The notes beneath the pieces are model-generated. The model had not been told where the DNA came from and did not search any database. It saw nothing but the letters and a program-made list of their open reading frames with translations. Of a stretch of DNA of 22,052 nucleotides, positions 18,794 to 22,052 are shown piece after piece. Position numbers and translations under genes: made by a program. Origin of the DNA: a virus. The stretch's first letter is position 1. Every line of letters starts with the position of its first letter. The stretch is from IMG/VR virus record IMGVR_UViG_3300047299_000096, positions 1 through 22,052 of that record; one strand, given 5' to 3'.

Positions 18794-20790
<1,997 letters not shown>

Positions 20791-20798
20791 AGGAAAAT

Positions 20799-21008
20799 AT
20801 GACAGAAGAAAACACAACATTAGTAAACACACAAGAAGAACTTGTTAAACAGTTTCAAATTTACATTGATGAAAATCAAAAATTTACAGACAAAAAAGTA
20901 AAAGCTGCTGCCGGTCGTGCTCGTAAGGCATTACAAGAAGTGGCCAAGCTAGTAAAAGCTCGTCGTAAAGAAATCACCGAAGAGAAAGCGGCTTTGAGTA
21001 CTAAGTAA
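20799..21008 (+). CDS. Small basic histone-H1-like protein
   Basis: 69 residues. The N-terminal half is acidic and helical (TQEELVKQFQIYIDENQK); the second half is Lys/Arg/Ala-rich (KKVKAAAGRARKALQEVAKL, VKARRKEITEEKAA). The AAAxRARKALxExxKLxKxxRKEI pattern resembles bacterial histone-H1-like proteins (Hc1 family) found in chlamydiae, Bacteroidetes and some phages, which bind DNA. AAAGGA lies 4-9 nt before the ATG. It is part of the gp46-ACP operon. It could package DNA or act on the nucleoid, but binding is inferred from charge. Confidence 0.6.
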   Translation: MTEENTTLVNTQEELVKQFQIYIDENQKFTDKKVKAAAGRARKALQEVAKLVKARRKEITEEKAALSTK

Positions 21009-21014
21009 TAGCCT

Positions 21015-21440
21015 ATGTGGCTATTCGAAGGTAATCAAATTGAACAACTTCCAGAAGACTGTATTGGTTTCGTGTATCTTATAACCAATACAGTCACTGG
21101 CAGAAAATACATTGGCAAAAAACTGGCAAAATTCTCCAAGACAACTTATAAAACTGTTAAATTAAAAAACGGCACCAAAAAGAAGAAAAAAATTCGAGGC
21201 AAAATCGAAAGCGACTGGCAAACATATTATGGCTCAAGCGACGAACTAAGCAAAGACGTTGCAACACTAGGCCCAGACAAATTTACCCGTGAAATATTAC
21301 ATTACTGCAATAGTAAGGCACTAACCTCATATCTCGAAGCAAAAGAACAATTTGAAAGAAAAGTCCTCGAATCCGATGATTACTACAATGGTCACATACA
21401 AGTTCGCGTTCACGGCTCCCATATAAAAACCAAAATCTAA
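21015..21440 (+). CDS. GIY-YIG-type putative endonuclease
   Basis: 141 residues. CIGFVYLITNTVTGRKYIGK (16-35) provides the VYL...KYIG version of the GIY-YIG motif. The nuclease-like core continues with DWQTYYGSSDELSKDV, TREILHYCNSKALTSYLEAK and EQFERKVLESDDYYNG, where the Glu of YLEAKEQFE may be the metal ligand. This arrangement recurs in stand-alone proteins of T4-like phages and is not obviously tied to a homing event. A Lys-rich loop (KNGTKKKKKIRGKIE) may contact DNA. It ends the plus-strand operon and directly precedes the hairpin-rich non-coding stretch. Confidence 0.78.
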   Translation: MWLFEGNQIEQLPEDCIGFVYLITNTVTGRKYIGKKLAKFSKTTYKTVKLKNGTKKKKKIRGKIESDWQTYYGSSDELSKDVATLGPDKFTREILHYCNSKALTSYLEAKEQFERKVLESDDYYNGHIQVRVHGSHIKTKI

Positions 21441-21805
21441 ACTAGGATATTCCTAAGGTCCAAGCTCTACTGATAATGCCCGCACTGGCAAGTTAAACAA
21501 GTGCCCGAATCCGTTCTGAGTGTGACGGTAGGAAATTCCGAGCAGTAGCGGAGACATGATTGCCACTATCCCATTGATGATGGGACGAAGCGTTAGACTT
21601 GAAAAACGCTGGCATGTGTATGTATAGTCAAAATGAGTGGGCTATGTTGAGTCATTACATCCCACATGAATCTCTGCGTTCATCTATCAGCTACGAGATT
21701 TTGCGTTATATAGGACTGCGTAAAAGGGTACAGCGTAACCGCCCTTACTTAATAAGTTGCAGCGATAGATTACGATAATGGGCCTCCGGCATATTATTTT
21801 TACTT

Positions 21806-21827
21806 CTTAGCCCCTAACGGGGCTAAG
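21806..21827 (+). other. Stable 9-bp hairpin with UAAC loop
   Basis: CTTAGCCCC pairs perfectly with GGGGCTAAG across a TAAC loop. It is the most stable stem in the non-coding stretch. No U-run follows on either strand, so it is a structural element rather than a terminator. Confidence 0.7.
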
Positions 21828-21898
21828 TACGACTGCAAAACCTTGGCATGTATTATCTTATATAAGAACTATCTAAATGTTAAAGAAAAAGAATTAGT

Positions 21899-21941
21899 AA
21901 GAATAATGTTTTGTTAGCGTAGCGTATAAAACATAATTCTT
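21899..21941. repeat. Long inverted repeat (14-bp arms, one mismatch)
   Basis: AAGAATAATGTTTT (21899-21912) pairs with AAAACATAATTCTT (21928-21941) with a single A-A mismatch, around a 15-nt loop. A second perfect 7-bp hairpin (GTTGTTC, TCC, GAACAAC) follows from 21943 to 21959. Confidence 0.7.
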
Positions 21942-22052
21942 TGTTGTTCTCCGAACAACTTAAAATCTATCTTGTGTTAAAGTTTCTTTAGGCTTTATGC
22001 CTTTATCTAGACTGATTTTCTCTTTGAGTATTTTAAGGAATATTCGCTTTTC

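Follow-up and report, generated by a model that had tools for sequence, protein, structure and literature searches.

What occupies the end of this phage contig, where about 520 bases carry no gene between a SegE-like GIY-YIG gene (21015-21440) and position 21960, at which a convergent gene has its stop? The window, i.e. the whole stretch of 22,052 nucleotides of IMG/VR record IMGVR_UViG_3300047299_000096 that we analyzed, has genes for a late sigma factor and for SbcCD proteins that resemble gp55 and gp46/47, respectively, indicating that it comes from a T4-like phage. Positions 20569-21008, which lie between the SbcC and GIY-YIG genes, code for a phage acyl-carrier-like protein and for an Hc1 protein like histone H1. 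An initial annotation had pointed to a gene-free, hairpin-dense region of about 610 bases. Its gap and its hairpins are real, but its end was overshot by about 90 bases: positions 21960-22052 are the tail of a gene on the minus strand, and relatives have a complete ORF of 73-80 aa where the window shows this open C-terminus.

A conserved phage RNA with a known 5' domain

The product of the locus is a non-coding RNA of about 500 nt, which is folded and is conserved in T4-like phages. We consider it almost certain that positions 21462-21959 form one real structured non-coding RNA, whose features are listed in Table 1. The coding alternative raised in the initial annotation does not hold, because no conserved reading frame crosses these positions. 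The 5' end of the RNA was placed by inference from pseudoknot PK0 and the 3' end from the last conserved hairpin; a T-run terminator was not found at the 3' end, and a promoter belonging to the phage RNA itself was not recognisable.

Table 1 Features of the RNA locus and its neighbours (positions in the window).
Feature	Position	Strand	Evidence
SegE-like GIY-YIG gene, 141 aa; upstream neighbour, not part of the RNA	21015..21440	+	Pfam PF19835, 3.7e-34
Whole RNA, ~500 nt	21462..21959	+	96.7% of cells paired; conservation along full length (23 window-type relatives)
PK0 5' strand CUACUG, pairing with loop 21543-21548 (CAGUAG); upstream of the Rfam model	21467..21472	+	100% paired
5' domain, Rfam RF01718 Polynucleobacter-1	21477..21619	+	48.4 bits vs cut-off 37; model 1-141 of 141, complete
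Hairpin H1 (GUGGG/CCCAC)	21637..21665	+	100% paired, 3/5 pairs changed on both sides
Hairpin P6	21669..21700	+	96% paired in window-type RNAs
3' core: PKb (21705-21709 with 21735-21739), P7a, P7 (AAGGG/CCCUU), PKa 3' strand	21705..21770	+	
Repeat R1, GGCA core, before H3	21785..21794	+	Matched R1/R2 core in 23/23 relatives
Hairpin H3, 9 bp, UAAC loop, between the repeats	21806..21827	+	98.4% paired
Repeat R2, GGCA core, after H3	21842..21851	+	Same position identical to R1 in 44/44 distant-group RNAs
Terminal hairpins H4 and H5, probable RNA end	21898..21959	+	
Convergent neighbour gene, 3' end, outside the RNA	21960..22052	-	Translation stops at 21960

A search of the whole window at the Rfam gathering thresholds returned a single match, the 143-nt stretch assigned to RF01718. 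The earlier statement that no family could be matched is thus corrected for the first third of the RNA, and the suggestion of a new family survives for the last two thirds, which no Rfam family covers. A permissive Rfam search of the region (21380-22052, E up to 1) added nothing credible, and no other family matched 21620-21960 in it. RF01718 therefore models just one third of the RNA, leaving PK0, the 3' domain, the repeats, and the terminal hairpins outside. In PK0, a U-A pair has become C-G in four window-type relatives, and the equivalent pairs in a distant group of RNAs, group A, reached E values of 0.05-0.3 in a tree-based covariation scan.

The RF01718 motif was described in 2010 by Weinberg et al. 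as probably an RNA and probably cis-regulatory ('cis-reg y, switch ?'), and was assigned to Burkholderiales and to fresh or estuarine water (PMC2864571). We found no further discussion of it in the literature searched; the accession otherwise appears in a Haemophilus parasuis genome report. The window RNA agrees with the motif in its habitat type and in its first 143 nt, which match the complete model above the cut-off, but the motif was presented as probably cis-regulatory and as belonging to Burkholderiales rather than to phages.

GOLLD and ROOL, to which the initial annotation had likened the region, are large, pseudoknotted, phage-encoded RNAs whose function is unknown (PMC12286853). The window RNA is likewise large, pseudoknotted, and phage-encoded, but it is shorter and is without a match to them in sequence or structure: even with relaxed filters and E values up to 1 allowed, no covariance model of either matched 21380-22052. 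GOLLD and ROOL, which form homo-oligomeric cages made of RNA alone, also often adjoin phage tRNA genes, whereas no tRNA array lies beside this RNA and ARAGORN finds no tRNA in the window. The same program reports no tmRNA, with its tRNA-like ends and tag frame, in the window, and that candidate was rejected.

Architecture and covariation

Shuffled sequences had been proposed as a check, and the real sequence did fold better than they did, but only modestly so (single-sequence folding energy, z ~ -2.3). The hairpins by themselves are consequently no proof of an RNA, and the proof comes from covariation. A 90-pair structure with three pseudoknots was drawn on the window sequence and then scored on 23 window-type RNAs, in which 96.7% of the cells were paired, compared with 33-46% for the slid and 89.6% for the shuffled control. 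Thirty of these pairs showed changes on both sides; the number of further pair types, one of five measures applied to this model, was not above shuffles. Covariation among homologues, the absence of which had been named as a reason to reject the RNA, is hence present over the 90 pairs in the 23 window-type relatives.

Group A (46 RNAs) was scanned with a tree-based null and with no structure supplied, using scripts that follow the idea of R-scape and are not R-scape itself. About 22 pairs were recovered at E<=0.05, located in both the Rfam domain and the 3' domain. In this distant group, 95.7% of 1665 cells were paired under a 38-pair model of the 3' domain; both sides had changed in 28 of the 38 pairs, and double changes were counted in 238 cells. 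The pseudoknots of this domain in group A are PKa, which joins a hairpin loop to a strand downstream of it, and PKb. PKa of the window joins the P6 loop at 21682-21688 (AUCUAUC) to 21764-21770; it is paired in 100% of window-type RNAs, and in the distant group each of its seven pairs has changed at both positions. Moreover, an independent model built from these distant phages matches window positions 21645-21854 (E 7.6e-4), indicating that both RNA types share one architecture.

Several elements that had been noticed by eye were recovered. The three-way junction is closed by GCCA/UGGC (21562-21565 / 21610-21613) and carries the stems 21569-21585 and 21590-21609, the 9-bp stem with a UAAC loop is H3, and the long arm is AT-rich and lies at about 21898-21941. 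H5 (21943-21959) is invariant in the 23 relatives, and paired terminal hairpins are visible by eye in both phage and chromosomal copies. Full-length covariation, three pseudoknots, and the T4-like phage context all bear out the description of a large, ornate phage RNA.

Two direct repeats that change together

R1 and R2, about 50 nt apart, flank hairpin H3. All 23 RNAs of the window clade combine GGCA with GGCA or GACA with GACA. The R1 and R2 7-mers of group A occur in 10 types and are identical to each other in 44/44 RNAs, compared with 18% when taken across RNAs. Other phage groups and the chromosomal copies carry quite different, yet matched, repeat words; the spacing ranges from 48 to 64 nt in an illustrative table of RNAs picked for matching repeats. 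To our knowledge, identity-coupled repeats are not a feature of GOLLD or ROOL.

The coupling was quantified on the alignments. Identity-pair scores of 60 and 57 were obtained in the group-A scan against a null maximum of 46, and over 114 RNAs the identity-coupling scores at three variable columns were 143, 139, and 109 against a null maximum of 97. Parsimony requires at least 22, 15, and 8 changes of R1 at three columns, and at each of these a single one of the 114 sequences is mismatched. The bases adjoining the repeats (ACUC vs AUCU) are different in nearly all RNAs, which argues against simple gene conversion. When the best direct repeat was simply picked out of every RNA on its own, the result was no better than with shuffles, so that the case for the repeats rests on aligned covariation and not on single sequences. 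Identity covariation of this kind lies outside the design of ordinary base-pair covariation tests.

The reverse complement of the repeat occurred 0 times in 130 RNAs, which suggests that its partner is elsewhere, and no pairing of the repeats inside the RNA was found. Target sites were enriched neither in five phage contigs nor in the flanks, leaving an RNA target in the phage unsupported. Translational bypassing, prompted by a stop codon after the repeats in group A, was rejected because the stop is absent in other groups. A third GGCAU(G)U-like word, at 21610 at the 5'-domain end of window-type RNAs (the others being at 21788 and 21845), partly tracks both repeats.

Genomic context and possible roles

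The IMG/VR phage contigs in which a relative of the RNA follows a SegE-like GIY-YIG gene number dozens to hundreds, many of them from freshwater T4-like phages. A DNA pattern taken solely from the 3' part retrieved 96 contig stretches for the window type, and the corresponding pattern for the distant type at least 120. Fifty IMG/VR contigs bearing the GIY-YIG gene were searched for RF01718, and 36 had it; among the other 14, nine had the 3' part by its anchor motif and three more by covariance model. In isolated phages the RNA was absent by blastn (two variants), by RF01718 search, and by model R2 (best E 0.37), a covariance model built from phage 3' domains only and distinct from repeat R2. 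The SegE-like GIY-YIG proteins are labelled 'NAD synthetase' in many phage records and in PHROG 447, apparently a misannotation that has spread.

RF01718 also matched 5 of 399 Burkholderiales genomes, 4 of them above the cut-off; a 1.95-Mb contig is among the matches. Model R2 matched three genomes (G443, G116, and G075) once each, directly 3' of the RF01718 match; that a phage-only model does so supports the view that the two domains are one RNA. A group-A covariance model, R1 (not the repeat R1), was rejected as too narrow for chromosomes. The context of a chromosomal copy was readable in four cases; in each of them the copy is divergent to a DUF6641 gene, and in two tyrosine recombinases are nearby. 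This module was located at L382 7973-8621, L383 8873-9340, L384 1466-2376, and L155 337-1163, and a small Lys/Gln-rich ORF follows it in three of these loci. A further copy beside DUF6641, in L397, was missed by Rfam. Upstream of DUF6641 in L399, the repeat-hairpin-repeat unit and the terminal hairpins alone seem, by eye, to be retained, and this short relative is possibly the minimal active part. A (C/A)TAAATA element that by likeness resembles the T4 late promoter precedes the RNA in the six copies read, and the islands may respond to T4-like infection. The element was seen at L387, L389, L390, L391, and L394-L399, both in front of the RNA and in front of DUF6641 loci that have no RNA. DUF6641 was not found in IMG/VR, in a search run without a positive control, nor in 15 virus records.

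The neighbours of the RNA bear on what it might do. The class given to RF01718 in 2010 would make it a cis-regulatory leader (5' UTR) of the next gene, consistent with the 66 of 172 loci in which that gene lies on the same strand; however, it is convergent in the other 106, including the window, which argues that the RNA is not a leader. Hairpins close the RNA, and some loci have a promoter behind it: in six group-A loci an exact TATAAATA (T4 late promoter) lies 200-219 bases past the anchor, 3' of the RNA. In about 50 loci the next gene mostly starts 400-600 bases from the RNA start, and rarely soon after the end of the Rfam match. The label of 2010, which the Rfam model itself does not include, moreover usually rested on location upstream of genes (PMC2864571). 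The RNA is thus very probably not a 5' leader. The GIY-YIG gene directly upstream raises another idea, namely that the RNA could serve its endonuclease as a guide or cofactor, by analogy with HEARO and omega RNAs, which are likewise encoded beside a nuclease gene. Adjacency is frequent, both in 172 of 196 testable loci, many of which had been gathered by way of this gene, and in the set obtained with the RNA motif alone, where it holds for about 70 of 80 loci. However, those nucleases have a different fold, 24 loci have another gene directly upstream, the chromosomal copies sit with DUF6641, nine searched records among the 458 phage records holding the gene have no RF01718, and coupling of the repeat letters to the GIY-YIG sequence was not detectable in 114 pairs. 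Given these breaks in linkage and this lack of a coevolution signal, such a role seems very unlikely. At L197, L236, L253, and L277, another ORF (MPSKSKTKGSGFEREVATHLS or similar, nuclease-like by eye) takes the place of the GIY-YIG gene upstream of the motif, which at L277 may be a chance match.

Other explanations address the repeats. DRT2-type RNAs contain repeats at which the copied strand moves from one to the other, and R1 and R2 could similarly be a template-jump or recombination element, the shift of the copied strand between them accounting for their identity. Such an alignment requirement suits identity combined with free sequence and a distance of about 50 nt, but no reverse transcriptase came to notice next to the RNA, and the variable spacing (48-64 nt) and the failure to keep a reading frame make it improbable. 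Pairing of both repeats with one host RNA target is also unlikely, if less so; two identical guides would covary exactly as R1 and R2 do, but phage sequence showed no enrichment in a search that covered phage contigs and flanks.

The account that we favour, with somewhat better than even confidence, is a stand-alone RNA acting in trans, in which a single recognition site would occur twice, as R1 and R2; action in trans is suggested by the absence of a cis partner for the repeats. The folded body of this transcript would present both copies, and a putative partner, a protein dimer or an RNA, would bind them, so that a shift in its specificity would force the same change in each repeat. We give such a two-site mechanism, with one partner for both repeats, about an even chance. 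The RNA is presumably used during infection, and the chromosomal copies would be counterparts with different repeat sequences. More tentatively, and on balance doubtfully, we may be dealing with an RNA class whose two identical, fast-changing sites form an 'address' for one partner, swapped at both places in each phage lineage, with rival copies beside DUF6641 on mobile chromosomal islands.

In summary, a largely forgotten small Rfam motif is one third of a large, common phage RNA, and DUF6641, a family of unknown function, gains a strong context lead. The matched changes of R1 and R2, more than 20 on the tree at one position, are a sharp, testable sign of a two-site mechanism. If the 'address' reading is true, the RNAs of phages and islands would be rivals for a shared partner or would evade it.
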